In this document: positions 48,646 to 56,941 of the stretch, in pieces
Layout of the letters: every line of letters begins with the position of its first letter
Numbering within the stretch: position 1 is the stretch's first letter
Origin: Dehalococcoides mccartyi CG5
Lineage (GTDB): Bacteria > Chloroflexota > Dehalococcoidia > Dehalococcoidales > Dehalococcoidaceae
DNA: 64,000 nucleotides
Reading direction: 5' to 3'
Assembly (NCBI RefSeq): GCF_000830885.1
Contig: NZ_CP006951.1
Location: forward strand, 434,001-498,000
Made by a program: the position numbers and the translations under genes
The notes under the pieces: model-generated
Databases searched by the model: none
Seen by the model: only the letters and a program-made list of their open reading frames with translations
Told to the model about the DNA's origin: nothing

Positions 48646-48673
48646 TTGACAGTAGCTATGTTTCGTGTAGAAT
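48646..48673 (+). promoter_or_regulatory. Promoter of the aminomutase-ATP-grasp operon
   Basis: TTGACA, 16 bases and TAGAAT lie about 65 bases before the GTG at 48739, with AAGGAGG in the leader. Confidence 0.7.
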
Positions 48674-48738: not shown

Positions 48739-50058
48739 GTGACCAATACCGAAAAAATTAAAAACAAACAATCGGATGACCCTCTTGGCGCAGGTACAAT
48801 TGAAAATTGTGGTAAGGTAGACGATGAGCCCCCCAGTAGGCCTAACCAAACAAAAAGATTTAGACTTAAATATTTCCCCAAGGTAAGTGACCAGGATTGG
48901 AATGACTGGCACTGGCAATTCAAGAACCGTGTTACTTCTGTAGCAGAAATAGCAAGGTTTTTTCATTTGTCTGCGGAAGAATACCGGGATATGGACACGG
49001 TGTCTGCGGTATTCCCCCTTTCTGCCACCCCTTATTACCTTAGTCTGGTAGATTTTGATAATGTTAATGACCCCGTAAAACTCCAGCTTATACCGGATAC
49101 AGCCGAACTTTGCTTTGATGCTCACTGCTGTTCTGACCCTTTGGAAGAAGCCCACAGTTCGGTAGTGCCCGGTCTGGTACACCGCTATCCTGATAGGGTA
49201 GTAATGGTGCTGACAGATATTTGCCCTGTGCTTTGCCGCCACTGTACCCGTAAAAGGGAGTGGAAAAATGGTGGCTGGGTGCATACTCAGGCAGAGATAG
49301 ACGCCATGTTGGCCTATATACGCCAGAATCAAGCTATCCGAGATGTCATAATATCCGGTGGTGATCCCTTGACCCTGTCCACATCACGCTTGGAAAGTGT
49401 TCTTTCGGCCTTGCGTTCCATATCCCATGTAGAAATAATCCGCATTGGCACCCGCTATCCTGTAGTTTTACCCCAGAGGATAGATGATGAACTCTGCAGC
49501 ATGCTTTCCAAGTATGGGCCTATTTGGCTTAATACCCATTACAATCATCCTAATGAAATAACAGATGAATCCCGCCAAGCATGTGATCGTTTGGTCAGGG
49601 CGGGCGTACCTGTAAATAACCAGTCGGTGCTTTTAAAAGGCATAAATGATAGCTTGCCCGTCCAAAAAGCTCTTTGCCATAAACTCTTGATGAGCAAAGT
49701 GCGTCCTTATTATCTGTTCCAATGTGACAATGTTCAGGGTACAGAGCATTTCCATACCCCCATTGAAACCGGGGTGGGTATTATTGAGGGCTTGCGTGGT
49801 TATACCTCTGGTTTGGCTGTGCCGAATTATGTTATAGATTTGCCCGGAGGCGGCGGCAAGATTACCATCCAGCCGGACTATGTGCTGGATAAACAGGCTG
49901 ACGAATATATAATCCGTAATTACAAGGGTGAGATAATCCGTTTTAAAAACCCGGGTGGTCACAAAGTTTTTAGTAATACCGGTAGCACAGGTACTGTTAA
50001 AACTGCCGCTAAAATAAATGGAGAAACAGATGCGAATAGGGCTGTCATACGATCTTAA
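48739..50058 (+). CDS. kamA: Lysine 2,3-aminomutase (KamA-type radical SAM enzyme)
   Basis: KamA interconverts lysine and beta-lysine using SAM, PLP and an Fe4S4 cluster. The 439-residue protein has the cluster motif CPVLCRHC (C162, C166, C169) followed by TRKRE. It also has LFQCDNVQGTEHF and the PLP-lysine motif in VIDLPGGGGK. Two Asp residues, in QCD and VID, match those that bind the epsilon-amino group of lysine in studied KamA enzymes, which argues for lysine and against glutamate as substrate. The start is a GTG 13 bases from GGAGG. Its end overlaps the next gene by 29 bases. EF-P modification (EpmB) is less likely because of these Asp residues. Confidence 0.85.
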   Translation: MTNTEKIKNKQSDDPLGAGTIENCGKVDDEPPSRPNQTKRFRLKYFPKVSDQDWNDWHWQFKNRVTSVAEIARFFHLSAEEYRDMDTVSAVFPLSATPYYLSLVDFDNVNDPVKLQLIPDTAELCFDAHCCSDPLEEAHSSVVPGLVHRYPDRVVMVLTDICPVLCRHCTRKREWKNGGWVHTQAEIDAMLAYIRQNQAIRDVIISGGDPLTLSTSRLESVLSALRSISHVEIIRIGTRYPVVLPQRIDDELCSMLSKYGPIWLNTHYNHPNEITDESRQACDRLVRAGVPVNNQSVLLKGINDSLPVQKALCHKLLMSKVRPYYLFQCDNVQGTEHFHTPIETGVGIIEGLRGYTSGLAVPNYVIDLPGGGGKITIQPDYVLDKQADEYIIRNYKGEIIRFKNPGGHKVFSNTGSTGTVKTAAKINGETDANRAVIRS

Positions 50059-51046
50059 ACTGGCTTTGACCCCGGTAACCGGCGGCCCTGATGATGCGTT
50101 GGAGGAATATGACTCACCGGAAACGGTGGAGGCTATAACGAACTCCTTAACAGCGGCTGGACATGCTGTTTACCGTTTGGGTGGAGGTAAAGAATTTTTA
50201 CGCAAGGTACAGGAACAGAAACTGGATCTTGTTTTCAATATTTCAGAAGGTTTGGGTAACTACCGCAGCCGCGAAGCTCAAATTCCCGGTGTTTTAGAGA
50301 TGTTAGATATACCTTACACCGGTTCAGACCCGCAGACACTGGCAATCTGTCTGGATAAACCACTAACCAAGAAATTGGTGGCTGGTGCGGGCGTAAAGAC
50401 TGCCAAATGGCAGTTGGTTAGCAACTGTGAAGAGCTTTCAACCATAGACTGGTCGGATTTCCCTTTGCCGGCTTTCCTGAAACCAGCCTGCGAGGGTTCC
50501 AGCAAGGGTGTGCGGTTTGCTTCCCGGGCGGAAAGTACCGACGAGATAATGAGGATGGCTACAGAACTTTTAACTACCTATAACCAACCTGTTTTGGTAG
50601 AGGAATTTATAAATGGCGACGAAATTACGGTAGGTGTTATAGGGAACGATAAGCCTAAAGTTCTGGGTATAATGCGGATTGTGCCTAAAACCAAAGCCGA
50701 TTATTTTGTGTATTCCATTGAGATAAAACGCAACTGGCGGCAGATGGTAGAGTATGAAGTACCGGCGGCCTTACCTGCCAAAACTCTGGCCCGTATTGAA
50801 AAAGCCACACTGGATGCGTATAGAGTACTGGAATGCCATGATCTATGCCGGATGGATTTTAGGGTAAGCCCGGATGGTACGCCGTATTTTCTGGAGGTTA
50901 ACCCGCTTCCCGGTCTTAACCCTGTCAGCGGAGATTTACCTATTATGGCATCTAAATTAGGTATCAGCCACGCAGATTTGGTGTTAGAAATACTTAACAC
51001 TGCCATTGCCCGCCATAATTTGGTAGCGGCAGACTGTTTGGCCTGA
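50030..51046 (+). CDS. D-alanine-D-alanine ligase-like ATP-grasp ligase
   Basis: The 338-residue protein has the ATP-grasp fold of Ddl enzymes: PYTGSDPQTLAICLDKPLTK, the glycine loop EGSSKGVRF and FLEVNPLPGLNP with metal ligands. It joins an amine to a carboxylate using ATP. Because this lineage is thought to lack peptidoglycan, and because the gene overlaps a lysine aminomutase gene by 29 bases, the acceptor may be beta-lysine instead of D-alanine. I began it at the ATG at 50030, with GGAG seven bases upstream, instead of 50018. The binding loop residues that choose D-Ala are not decisive by eye. Confidence 0.8.
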   Translation: MRIGLSYDLKLALTPVTGGPDDALEEYDSPETVEAITNSLTAAGHAVYRLGGGKEFLRKVQEQKLDLVFNISEGLGNYRSREAQIPGVLEMLDIPYTGSDPQTLAICLDKPLTKKLVAGAGVKTAKWQLVSNCEELSTIDWSDFPLPAFLKPACEGSSKGVRFASRAESTDEIMRMATELLTTYNQPVLVEEFINGDEITVGVIGNDKPKVLGIMRIVPKTKADYFVYSIEIKRNWRQMVEYEVPAALPAKTLARIEKATLDAYRVLECHDLCRMDFRVSPDGTPYFLEVNPLPGLNPVSGDLPIMASKLGISHADLVLEILNTAIARHNLVAADCLA

Positions 51047-51066: not shown

Positions 51067-51086
51067 AAGCCTCCTTCGGGAGGCTT
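51067..51086 (+). terminator. Rho-independent terminator after the ATP-grasp gene
   Basis: AAGCCTCC, a TTCG tetraloop and GGAGGCTT are followed by TTTATTT. It lies 20 bases after the stop. Confidence 0.9.
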
Positions 51087-51176: not shown

Positions 51177-51608
51177 GTGACAACTATCCAAAGCCGTATA
51201 CGCCAGAATAAATACAAGATAACTCCCCAACGGCAGGCCGTTTTGAAGGTGCTTTCGGCTGCCATTCAGCCGCTTAGCCCTGCAGAAGTGCATAAACTGG
51301 TACAGGCAGACAAACCGGCAACCGGTATGGCTACTGTGTATCGGTCACTTCAGCTTCTGGCTGAACTGGGGCTTATTTGCGAACTTCATACCGCCGGAAA
51401 CTGCCACCGCTACTTGCTAAAACGTATAGATTCCCATCACCACCATCTGATATGTTCCGGGTGCGGTCAAGTTGTTCATGTGGAGGGGTGCGGGCTTAAA
51501 GAGATTACGGAAAATCTGTCCAGACAAACAGGATTTGCCATTGATACCCATTTGCTGGAGTTTATTGGGCGGTGCCGGAATTGTCAGAAGGGGACTGGTA
51601 AAGTATGA
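51177..51608 (+). CDS. Fur-family regulator (probable Zur)
   Basis: The 143-residue metal-sensing repressor has the DNA-binding helices TPQRQAVLKVLSAA and GMATVYRSLQLL, the metal/dimer region SHHHHLICSGCG and a C-terminal CRNC that pairs as a structural zinc site. A GTG start with AGAAGGA is close upstream. It overlaps the start of the metal-binding lipoprotein gene by four bases (ATGA), so regulator and transporter are coupled. The neighbours make Zur or Mn-sensing Mur more likely than iron Fur. Confidence 0.9.
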   Translation: MTTIQSRIRQNKYKITPQRQAVLKVLSAAIQPLSPAEVHKLVQADKPATGMATVYRSLQLLAELGLICELHTAGNCHRYLLKRIDSHHHHLICSGCGQVVHVEGCGLKEITENLSRQTGFAIDTHLLEFIGRCRNCQKGTGKV

Positions 51609-52477
51609 AATTTAGGACATTATTTTTGAGTTTGATTCTAGGGGTTACACTTCTGAGCAGTTTACTGCTGGCAGGCTGTCAGGAAGAAACACCCTCTACT
51701 GCTAAACTGAAAATTGCAGTCAGTATAGTGCCACTAAAGGAGTTTACTCAGCAAATTGCAGGGGATAAGGCTGAGGTAGTTCTTATGGTTCCTCCCGGAG
51801 CAGAGCCGCATACTTATCAGCCGCTTCCTTCGCAGATGGTAGATGTAAGCCAGGCAGATATGTATGTGAAACTGGGATCTGATTTTGGTTTTGAGCAAAA
51901 CTGGCTTTCAAAAATATTGTCATTAAACCATTCTATGCTGGTTGTAGACAGTTCGGTAAATATTACTCTTGAAAGTAGCCTAGAGGATAGCGGGGCAGAT
52001 CCGCATATTTGGCTTTCCCCGCGTAATGCTATCCAAATGGTTAAAAATATCACTTTGGGGCTGATGAGTCTGGATCCCGAAAACCAAAGTTATTATGCCG
52101 CCAACAGAGATGCTTATCTGGCAAAGCTGGAGCAGCTGGATAACGAAATAACATTGGCCTTCAGTAATCTTTATAACCGCACTTTTCTGGTCTTTCACCC
52201 TGCTTGGGTTTACTTCGCCAGAGACTATAATCTGAAGGAACTTTCTATTGAGATAGAGGGCAAAGAGCCCACCCCCCAACAAATGATAGAAATTATAAAT
52301 ATGGCAATACAAAATAATATCAGCATTGTTTTCGCTTCGCCCCAATTTTCCAGCCGAAGTGCGGAGGCTATTGCTTCTGAAATAGACGGCAGGGTAGTGA
52401 TGATAGACCCACTGGCAGAAGATTACATAACGAATATGGAGTTTGTTTACAAACAAATGCAAGAGGTTATGAGCTGA
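51605..52477 (+). CDS. znuA: Zn/Mn ABC transporter substrate-binding lipoprotein (ZnuA-like)
   Basis: The 290-residue lipoprotein begins with a signal peptide and lipobox LAGC (Cys25). Metal ligands of the cluster A-I family are visible as His in GAEPHTYQPLPSQ, His in DPHIWLSPRN, His in VFHPAWVYFA and an Asp near the C terminus in MIDPLAED. There is no His-rich acidic loop, which often marks zinc-specific ZnuA. It overlaps the fur stop and is followed two bases later by the ATPase gene. Confidence 0.9.
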   Translation: MKFRTLFLSLILGVTLLSSLLLAGCQEETPSTAKLKIAVSIVPLKEFTQQIAGDKAEVVLMVPPGAEPHTYQPLPSQMVDVSQADMYVKLGSDFGFEQNWLSKILSLNHSMLVVDSSVNITLESSLEDSGADPHIWLSPRNAIQMVKNITLGLMSLDPENQSYYAANRDAYLAKLEQLDNEITLAFSNLYNRTFLVFHPAWVYFARDYNLKELSIEIEGKEPTPQQMIEIINMAIQNNISIVFASPQFSSRSAEAIASEIDGRVVMIDPLAEDYITNMEFVYKQMQEVMS

Positions 52478-52479
52478 GC

Positions 52480-53244
52480 ATGCCTGTCGTACCTGCCCTG
52501 GTGTTTAAGGGAGTGACAGCCAGTTTTGATGGGCTGGCAGTACTGGAAGATATTACTTTTTCCCAGCCCACAGGACGGATGCTGGGAATTATCGGTCCAA
52601 ATGGGGGAGGGAAAACTACTCTTCTCAAGCTGATTTTGGGGCTCGTTCAGCCTGATTGCGGCACTATAAAGGTGCTTGGCAAAAGCCCTGAGGATGCCCG
52701 GCCGGAGATTGGTTACGTTTCCCAGTACCACCTTTTTGACCGTGATTTCCCTATAAGTGTTTTGGAAGTGGTGTTGATGGGCAGATATTCCAAGCGCGGG
52801 TTGGCACATAGTTACCGTAAGGAAGATGTGGCTCTGGCTGAAGAATATCTGGATAAAGTGGGCATGTTGCCGTTTATTAACCGCCAGATAGGCCAGCTTT
52901 CAGGCGGACAGCAGAAGCGGGTATTTATAGCTAGGGCTTTGGTTAATCAGCCAAAACTGCTTATTCTGGATGAACCTACTGCCGGGGTAGATGCGGCCAT
53001 GCAAACCGGGCTGTACGAACTTTTAGAATCCTTGAAAAAAGATATGACTATTATTATGGTGACCCATGATATCAGTGCAGTGGCAGTATGCATAGATGAT
53101 ATTGCCTGTTTGAACAAGCATTTGTCATACCACCATGCCGAAGAGGGTTTGACTGCTGAAGATTTGGCTGAAACTTATAATTGCCCAATCCAGCTTATTG
53201 CACATGGGCAGGTACCTCACCGGGTGCTAAAGGAACACGAATGA
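52480..53244 (+). CDS. znuC: Zn/Mn ABC transporter ATP-binding protein (ZnuC-like)
   Basis: The 254-residue ATPase has Walker A GPNGGGKTT, a Q-loop YVSQYH, the LSGGQQKRVFIARAL signature, Walker B LLILDEPTAGVD and the switch His in TMVTHDIS-like MVTHDIS. It is the motor for the metal importer. Its TGA overlaps the permease ATG (ATGA). The ATG start is two bases after the lipoprotein stop, and no better start exists. Confidence 0.93.
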   Translation: MPVVPALVFKGVTASFDGLAVLEDITFSQPTGRMLGIIGPNGGGKTTLLKLILGLVQPDCGTIKVLGKSPEDARPEIGYVSQYHLFDRDFPISVLEVVLMGRYSKRGLAHSYRKEDVALAEEYLDKVGMLPFINRQIGQLSGGQQKRVFIARALVNQPKLLILDEPTAGVDAAMQTGLYELLESLKKDMTIIMVTHDISAVAVCIDDIACLNKHLSYHHAEEGLTAEDLAETYNCPIQLIAHGQVPHRVLKEHE

Positions 53245-54086
53245 TAGAGGCTTTGGGTTATGGCTTTATCCAGAATGCTATTTGGGCAGGGCTGCTGGCG
53301 GCAATAGGCTGCGGTATTATTGGCAGCTACGTCGTGGTAAAAAAACTGGCATCCATCAGCGGCGGTATTGCCCACGCTTCCTTTGGCGGAATCGGTCTGG
53401 GGTATCTGCTGGGCATTAATCCGGTGCTGGGTGCGCTGGCATTCAGTTTGCTGGCTGCTGCCAGCATGGGTACTCTTACTCGCCGAAGCCGCATAAGTGA
53501 AGATACTATTATCGGTATGCTTTGGGCTTTAGGTATGGCTCTGGGCATTATCTTTATTGGTTTAACTCCCGGTTATGCACCGGATTTATTCAGTTATCTT
53601 TTCGGCAATATCCTGACAGTGCCGTCTTCAGATCTGGTGCTTATGCTGGTGCTGGACGCACTGATAATAGGGGTGGTCTGGTTTTTCTATAAGGAATTTT
53701 TGGGGGTATCTTTTGACGAGGAATTTTGCCGGGTAAGCGGTATGCCCACCGGGCTGTTATATGTAATAATGCTGGGGCTTATAGCGCTGACAGTGGTAAT
53801 GCTGATACGAGTAGTAGGTATAATACTGGTAATAGCTTTACTGACCATACCGGCAGCAGTAGCCCGCCGTTTTACGGATAGCCTTTTAAAGATGATGGGG
53901 CTTTCAATAGGATTTGGGGTGGTTTTCTGTTTGGGCGGGCTGTGGCTTTCCTATATACTGGATTTCGCTTCCGGGGCTACTATTATACTCTTTAGCGTGG
54001 CGGTATTTCTGGCGGTTTTAGCTTTCAAGGGCAAAAAGAAACAAGAGCCGGCTTCAGATAAAACCGGCTGCATCAACCACGAATAA
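53241..54086 (+). CDS. znuB: Zn/Mn ABC transporter permease (ZnuB-like)
   Basis: The 281-residue permease has eight to nine predicted helices, with the family signature GSYVVVKKLASISGGIAHASFGGIGLGYLLG near the N terminus (quoted in part as SISGGIAHASFGGIGLGY). I trimmed an upstream extension to the ATG at 53241, which overlaps the ATPase stop by four bases. The C-terminal GKKKQEPASDKTG is cytoplasmic. It completes a Fur-regulated metal uptake system. Confidence 0.92.
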   Translation: MIEALGYGFIQNAIWAGLLAAIGCGIIGSYVVVKKLASISGGIAHASFGGIGLGYLLGINPVLGALAFSLLAAASMGTLTRRSRISEDTIIGMLWALGMALGIIFIGLTPGYAPDLFSYLFGNILTVPSSDLVLMLVLDALIIGVVWFFYKEFLGVSFDEEFCRVSGMPTGLLYVIMLGLIALTVVMLIRVVGIILVIALLTIPAAVARRFTDSLLKMMGLSIGFGVVFCLGGLWLSYILDFASGATIILFSVAVFLAVLAFKGKKKQEPASDKTGCINHE

Positions 54087-54575: not shown

Positions 54576-55706
54576 TTATCTGCTTAAGAAACGCGGCGGA
54601 GCCTGATGTGCGGCAGGAGCCGGTTTCCGGATGGAAGGCTGAGCGGATCGGTAACGCATAAACGAAGGAACTTCCAGTTCTTCCTGAGTTTTGCTTCTCA
54701 GACCTTTCATCATACGGGTCATTTCTTTTTCATGGTTGTTGGAAAGCATGCTTTCCTTGGTGGCAAAACCGGTGGCTATCAGGGTTATCTGTACTTCCTT
54801 ACCCATGCGGGGGTCAGTGCTGACACCAAAGATGATATTGGCCTGTGGGTCAACCGCCTGACGGATAACGTCTGCTGCGGAGTTTACTTCCATAAGGGAA
54901 AGGTCTTCGCCGCCGCATACGTTGTAGATAACACCCATAGCACCGTCAACCGCTATATCCAGCAGCGGGCTGGCCAGAGCGGCTCTGGCGGCATCAGCTG
55001 CCCGGTTCTGTCCGGCACCCTTGCCTATAGACATCCAGGCGGGGCCGGCATCTTTCATGACGGCTTTTACATCTGCAAAGTCCAGGTTGATGATACCCGG
55101 AACGGTGATAACTTCGGCAATGGCCTTGACGCCGTTGCAAAGAACTTCGTCAGCCAGTTTAAAAGCCCCGTCAACCCCTGTTTTTTGGTCAACCATATCC
55201 AGCAGGCGGTCATTGGGGATAATAATAAGCGTATCAACGCTATCTACTATGTTATTTATGCCTTCTTCGGCGGTTTGCATGCGGTGAGCACCCTCAAAGC
55301 AGAAAGGCTTGGTGCATACCGCAATGGTCAGAGCGCCGGATTCCTTGGCTATTTTGGCAACCACGGGGGCTGAGCCGGTGCCTGTACCGCCACCCATACC
55401 GGCGGTTACGAAAACCATGTCAGCACCTATTATGTTTTCTTTGAGCTCGCTCAGGCTTTCTTCGGCAGCTGCTTTGCCCATGGTGTGGTTACCGCCGGCA
55501 CCCAGACCGCGGGTGCAGCGTTCACCAATCTGGATTCGGGTAGCAGCTTCGGTAATAGCCAGATGCTGGGCATCAGTATTAACGGCTATAAACTCTACGC
55601 CCTGTATGTTATCCCGAACCATGCGGGTTACAGCGTTGCTGCCTGCACCGCCGCACCCGATAACTTTAATCTTTGCGCCACTGGGTACATATACTTTTTT
55701 TGACAT
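54576..55706 (-). CDS. ftsZ: Cell division protein FtsZ
   Basis: FtsZ polymerises at midcell and hydrolyses GTP. The 376-residue protein has the G-box [13 protein letters not shown], the nucleotide Asn in [10 protein letters not shown] and the T7 loop [12 protein letters not shown]. After a short linker it ends with [11 protein letters not shown], a typical C-terminal partner peptide, and a Pro-rich tail. It is second in the ftsA-ftsZ unit, 32 bases after ftsA, with an AAGGAT ribosome site. It is the orthodox FtsZ of the genome, in contrast to the divergent protein at 4763-5941. Confidence 0.98.
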
Positions 55707-55738
55707 TCTTTTATCCTTAGTAAATCATTATCCTTTCG

Positions 55739-56941
55739 TTAGTTTTTGGGGTTCCCAAACATTCGTGAGATAAAGCCGCCTTTAGCACTTTCTTCAGTGG
55801 TTGGGTGGCTCTTTGAGGCGTCTCGGTTATTGATACTCCAAAGCAACATGCCAACAACATTGGTACAGGCAGGATCATTTAAGATATCTGATACACCAAA
55901 TAAATTGGGGGGAGTACCTACCCGTACCGGGAGCCGCAGTACTTCGCTGCCAAGCTCTGCAATGCCGGGGAGGTTGGCAGTACCGCCGGTTATTACCAGC
56001 CCGGAAGGTACCATTTTGGAATAATCATCGCTGGGTAACTCCAGGATAATGAGGCGCAGCAGTTCTTCAACCCGCATCCTGACAATCTCGCAAAGGTCAG
56101 GATAAGAGAAGGTATGTCCGCTTTCAACAAAGTTAGCGTCATTACATTCACCGGGTATTACACTGCTATATCTTTGTTTGATATCTTCGGCCATCTCAAA
56201 AGGAATGCCCAGACCCACAGAAACATCGTGGGTTACCTGTGAGCCGGCAATGGGCAGAACTGATGTATGATAAATACTGTTGCCTTTGAAGGCAGCTATA
56301 TCTGTAGTGCCGCCACCGATGTCAGCCAAGATAACACCCTTTTCGCGTTCTTCATCGGTTAATGCTGCTTCAGCACTGGCTAAAGGATTGAAGACCAGGT
56401 CGTCAATCTCTACGCCGGCAGCACGGATGCACTTGGTAAGATTTTCAATTGAATTTGAAGCGGCGGTAATAATGTGGGTTTCGACATCCAGGCGGAAGCC
56501 ATGCATGCCTACCGGATTACTAACGCCTTCCTGACCATCCACCGAATAATTACGGGGGATGATGTGAAGTACCTTTCTGTCCTGGGGCATAGTGATACTG
56601 CTGGCAATATCTATAGCCCTTTGCAGGTCACTCTGGCGCACCAGGTGGTCGTTTCGGGTGATACTGATAACTCCGCGGTTGTTTTTAGAGTTGATATGTT
56701 TTCCGGTTACGCCTATCAAGGCGGATTTGAGTTTATAACCAGCAGTTCTCTCTGCCATGCTTACCGACTCACGGATGGCTTCCTTAGCTTCATTAAGGTT
56801 AACCACCATGCCCTTCTGCAAACCACGAGAGGGGACAACCCCTACTCCCAGTATTCTCAGGTCTCCGTTTTCGGTGTCAGCCATAACGGTACAGATTTTA
56901 CTTGTACCGACGTCTATGGCCGCTATCTGTCTCCTTTTCAT
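55739..56941 (-). CDS. ftsA: Cell division protein FtsA
   Basis: FtsA is the actin-like anchor that ties FtsZ to the membrane. The 400-residue protein has the phosphate 1 motif [12 protein letters not shown], the 1C domain, phosphate 2 [14 protein letters not shown] and the adenosine motif [14 protein letters not shown]. The C-terminal end [18 protein letters not shown] could form the amphipathic membrane helix. GAGGGAGAGG lies before the ATG. It follows a 69-codon gene by 59 bases. The cell wall genes that usually share this operon are absent. Confidence 0.96.

Follow-up and report, generated by a model that had tools for sequence, protein, structure and literature searches.

The combination of a lysine 2,3-aminomutase (AblA) and an acetyltransferase (AblB) is the known route to N-epsilon-acetyl-beta-lysine in methanogens. 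In the structure of the C. subterminale lysine 2,3-aminomutase (2a5h) the ammonium group of lysine is held by two aspartates, D293 and D330. A KamA-family enzyme and beta-lysine also come together in the EpmA/EpmB system, where EpmA attaches beta-lysine to elongation factor P (EF-P). The preferred substrate of EpmA is (R)-beta-lysine, whereas AblA-type enzymes produce the (S) form. ATP-grasp ligases of the Ddl type join D-Ala to D-Ala, and carry an E15-S150-Y216 triad and Leu282 in the acceptor site (E. coli DdlB numbering). In the gene cluster for negamycin, an actinomycete antibiotic, beta-lysine formation is co-located with an ATP-grasp enzyme, which provides a precedent for the gene pair described here (PMC12154649). 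Unlike negamycin, which involves hydrazine chemistry, nothing of such chemistry was seen at our locus.

The window analyzed is a stretch of 64,000 nucleotides from the Dehalococcoides mccartyi CG5 genome (1.36 Mb, single contig). The kamA gene (48739..50058, + strand) has a GTG start with the sequence AAGGAGG located about 12 nucleotides 5' of it, and encodes a radical SAM/PLP lysine 2,3-aminomutase-like protein of 439 amino acids. The gene that follows (50030..51046, + strand) has an ATG start and encodes an amide ligase of 338 amino acids, assigned to the Ddl-fold ATP-grasp enzymes from homology, an AlphaFold2 model and structure matches. The longest mechanical reading of this frame starts at 50018. 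We set the start at 50030 because the ribosome-binding site is better (GGAG, 50019..50022, + strand, within the 3' end of kamA) and because the resulting N-terminus agrees with that of the relatives. The genes overlap by exactly the 29 nucleotides given in the preliminary description (50030..50058, + strand), and the overlap had the same length in 32 of 73 loci measured. The pair had been described as fused, which is wrong. The two genes are read in different frames and encode two separate proteins, for which the overlap suggests that translation is probably coupled.

A shared promoter and terminator had also been proposed. We found one promoter-like site (TTGACA-N16-TAGAAT, 48646..48673, + strand) with 11 of 12 matches in a consensus scan, and one hairpin followed by a T run that resembles an intrinsic terminator (51067..51086, + strand). 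Such sites were at least as common in shuffled sequence as here, and both are therefore plausible but not proven. Rfam found no riboswitch 5' of the operon in ten loci, so an osmolyte role has no backing from this side. Directly 3' of the terminator-like site, positions 51177-54086 hold genes for a Fur-family regulator, a metal-binding lipoprotein and an ABC transporter (zur-znu-like). A zinc metallophore reading based on these neighbors was dropped, since they are absent beside the operon in other lineages.

KamA matched the C. subterminale lysine 2,3-aminomutase with an E value of 5e-126, and its residues are numbered according to that enzyme. The residues that define the KamA family, CxxxCxxC, R134, D293, D330 and the PLP lysine K337, were conserved in 72 of 72 operon KamAs. 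The earlier observation that both lysine-marking aspartates are kept was thereby confirmed, and in this respect the enzyme resembles AblA. It was nevertheless found to score below the cut-offs of the curated models for AblA (TIGR03820, 472.5 vs. 525.4 bits), glutamate 2,3-aminomutase (TIGR04368, 449.4 vs. 650 bits), arginine 2,3-aminomutase (TIGR04468, 409.8 vs. 600 bits) and EpmB (TIGR03821, 248.5 vs. 369.3 bits). We therefore refer to it as lysine 2,3-aminomutase-like. The zinc cysteines of AblA are missing, with C268 being a serine and the C-terminal tail lacking cysteine, and the LAM_C match covers only positions 1-60 of 127. The operon KamAs formed a clade of their own, in which nearby positions are changed (A331 to L, L298 to T and Y322 to L). 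Judged from its sequence, KamA appears to be a lysine 2,3-aminomutase-like protein of a separate clade.

Because the AblA cut-off is missed and positions 331, 298 and 322 are changed, another basic amino acid is possible as substrate. In a wider form of this explanation KamA acts on arginine, ornithine, glutamate or a lysine derivative, and the product holds a different beta-amino acid. The separate clade and the failure to reach any aminomutase cut-off speak for it, but both lysine-holding aspartates are invariant and AblA gave the highest score of the three aminomutase models, which makes it improbable. Position 330 was found to be T in three annotated arginine aminomutases and C in rhizobial KamAs. 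Identity as an arginine aminomutase was rejected, as the protein has D330 and not T330.

The AlphaFold2 model of the ligase had a pLDDT of 91.6, and Ddl enzymes were its best structural matches, with Z about 33 and an rmsd of 2.3-2.7 over ~295 residues. Residue positions were derived from an alignment to E. coli DdlB including 47 homologues. The equivalents of the catalytic and metal-binding residues K97, K144, K215, R255, D257, E270 and N272 were conserved in 47 of 47, and the equivalent of S150, and probably that of E15, is retained. In contrast, Tyr216 is replaced by Arg (R234) and Leu282 by Asp (D302) in all 47 homologues. A further alignment, which included more divergent sequences, upheld K215, the metal residues and the change of L282 to Asp, while the Y216 and E15 columns fell in gaps or on other residues; the readings at these two positions consequently rest on the 47-homologue alignment. 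The Asp that takes the place of Leu282 in the acceptor pocket would fit a partner with a positive charge.

An ordinary D-Ala-D-Ala (or D-Ala-D-X) ligase, located behind kamA by happenstance, would account for Ddl enzymes being the best fold and sequence matches and for the conserved S150 equivalent. However, the ligase was below every Ddl cut-off (best 192.5 vs. 243), and the changes at Tyr216 and Leu282 exclude Ddl proper. They do not exclude every D-Ala-D-X ligase, since the Tyr position is variable in Van-type ligases too. A MurC-F set was not found, with at most one Mur_ligase_M match per genome, presumed to be folC. A survey of Dehalogenimonas likewise reported a lack of peptidoglycan synthesis genes (PMC13390414, 2026). 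The replaced Tyr216 and Leu282 together with the near lack of Mur-ligase-type genes make a cell-wall role unlikely, and we give an ordinary ligase of this kind hardly any weight. The doubt previously expressed about a role in D-Ala-D-Ala synthesis was well placed. The genes ftsZ and ftsA are retained at 54576-56941 although the genome lacks a Mur ligase set.

A neighborhood survey of kamA and ATP-grasp genes had been suggested to follow up the pair. We found kamA directly upstream of the ligase gene (ligase 1) in each of the 21 loci of the order, and present in 76 of 80 further loci, these being the best 80 of 506 candidates from a contig scan, all Chloroflexota and with other phyla under-sampled. 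Given this adjacency, the pairing is not a matter of chance. Three of the remaining four loci start at a contig end, and the fourth (L115) holds the ligases and a GNAT gene without kamA. Outside Dehalococcoides, ligase 1 was in nearly all loci of the order followed by ligase 2, a Ddl-like protein ~30% identical to ligase 1, and then by a GNAT gene; all four genes were found in this order in 72 of the 80 further loci. The pair is a shortened form of the operon kamA - ATP-grasp 1 - ATP-grasp 2 - GNAT, in which our ligase is ATP-grasp 1, rather than the self-contained two-gene system it had been taken for. A GNAT gene downstream of a KamA-type enzyme, as seen in most Dehalococcoidia, recalls AblA-AblB. 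The operon differs in having two Ddl-like ligases between the two, a GNAT that is not AblB by family match, and a KamA below the AblA cut-off and without the C268 zinc ligand. An MFS transporter gene was located just upstream of the kamA operon in 7 of 20 fetched loci of the order and 6 of the 80 further loci. This gene, seen in L036, L045-L050, L065, L075, L090, L100, L104 and L125, hints that the product is exported or taken up.

Among 301 Chloroflexota genomes ligase 1 was found in 28 (E up to 1e-40) and KamA in 106 (E up to 1e-90). All 28 genomes with ligase 1 also had KamA (hypergeometric 1.5e-14, ignoring kinship). Eleven of the 28 are outside Dehalococcoidia, and in ten of these ligase and KamA are on different contigs. 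Most of these ten ligases have 35-39% identity and carry Thr-Gly in place of Ser150-Ser151, and they may for these reasons differ in function. In three loci from other Chloroflexota (L144, L148 and L150) the ligase-ligase-GNAT genes have no adjacent kamA and KamA is on another contig.

KamA and ATP-grasp genes were also found together in unrelated settings. On a Thioflavicoccus plasmid (L141:2557-9421) the neighbors of KamA are a Ddl-like ligase, genes for diaminopropionate synthesis and one more ATP-grasp-like ORF, a set that looks like a small peptide cluster. In rhizobia (L158:4539-7143, L170:2493-5101 and L171:3962-6421) a KamA with C330 is found next to an ATP-grasp gene of another type, with the order of the two genes varying, and a contig from a viral collection (L157) holds another, independent pairing.

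The three Dehalococcoides genomes had neither ligase 2 nor the operon GNAT at the locus, and no copy of ligase 2 was found elsewhere in the present genome beyond one match of 26% identity. Strong purifying selection acts on the two genes that are left (dN/dS 0.067-0.089 for kamA and ligase 1). In the tree, the Dehalococcoides operon KamA grouped with KamA of the sister genus, which fits vertical descent of kamA. Going by the kinship table, we take this sister genus (g2) to be Dehalogenimonas and the genus of the close relatives to be Dehalococcoides. A match to AblB was present in only 3 of 41 relatives, which are the three Dehalococcoides, in each as an AblA-AblB fusion. In the present genome the fusion protein has 753 amino acids (L002:1345-3606; G000:C1 about 174.2-176.5 kb). 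This genome therefore also has the KamA-acetyltransferase route cited for methanogens, encoded apart from the pair. The occurrence of AblA-AblB in just the genomes without ligase 2 and GNAT is no more than suggestive of an exchange, as it may go back to a single evolutionary event.

Beta-lysine could also be used elsewhere in the cell. The genome encodes an EpmA-family protein (312 bits vs. a cut-off of 286.9), and epmA directly adjoins a second EF-P gene that has the PGKG loop lysine, while the other EF-P of the genome is without the PGKG loop. This efp-epmA operon is located outside the window (G000:C1:709960-711440; L174 and L175), and the same pair was present in 7 of 7 EpmA regions read in relatives. 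A short EpmA was found in 17 of 23 operon-carrying genomes and in none of the 18 others (41 relatives; the counts ignore kinship and incompleteness). The operon carriers, this genome among them, gave no EpmB-like match, and in such carriers the operon KamA often is the sole close KamA homologue. Taken together, KamA may chiefly supply beta-lysine to EpmA for attachment to EF-P, leaving the ligase as a side branch or with another substrate. Several observations argue against this. In two near-complete genomes (G001 and G014) kamA and the ligase occur in the absence of a short EpmA, KamA is far from an EpmB by score, and its gene overlaps the ligase gene with efp and epmA not nearby. The stereochemistry, (R) for EpmA against (S) for AblA-type enzymes, does not match either. 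We consider the EF-P explanation unlikely as the chief function. Beta-lysine may serve EF-P as well, but the EF-P route leaves the ligase unexplained.

We favor the reading that the pair is one half of an ancestral operon of the Dehalococcoidia, the other half of which was lost, and that the product of this operon is most likely a small beta-lysine-containing amide or peptide. We put the probability of this reading at roughly 55%. Its intact active site suggests that KamA would shift the alpha-amino group of L-lysine to C3 with the help of a [4Fe-4S] cluster, S-adenosylmethionine and PLP. The ligase, going by its Ddl fold and the conserved ATP-grasp residues, would then phosphorylate a carboxylate with ATP and join it to an amine, with beta-lysine as one of the partners. 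In Dehalococcoidia other than Dehalococcoides, the second Ddl-like ligase would add a further unit and the GNAT would acetylate the product. As these later steps are missing in Dehalococcoides, the product there is probably simpler and resembles a beta-lysyl dipeptide, perhaps with an acetyl group added by the separately encoded AblB domain. Our first guess for its role is an internal solute.

No sequence feature marks beta-lysine as the substrate of the ligase. The ligase-ligase-GNAT sets without adjacent kamA, and EpmA with EF-P as another use of beta-lysine, also count against the favored reading. A further-reaching version, in which this wall-less lineage has a dedicated and undescribed pathway for an acetylated beta-lysyl peptide (kamA, two Ddl-derived ligases and GNAT), KamA in addition feeds EpmA in place of EpmB, and Dehalococcoides has a cut-down version with AblA-AblB added, is doubtful. 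A limited literature search found nothing on a KamA and ATP-grasp pathway in Dehalococcoidia, an absence that says little.

Altogether, the interpretation in the preliminary description was partly supported. That beta-lysine is joined to a partner is still the best inference from the sequences, and the proposed ligation is now placed within a larger conserved operon of which half is kept in Dehalococcoides. The operon provides a short list of testable genes and substrates. Dehalococcoidia have no peptidoglycan and include bacteria used for the clean-up of chlorinated solvents. If the proposal is true, the persistence of Ddl-like genes in the absence of a wall would be explained by the recruitment of cell-wall ligases into a conserved metabolite pathway, and this would be a warning against annotating Ddl-like genes in Dehalococcoidia as D-Ala-D-Ala ligases.
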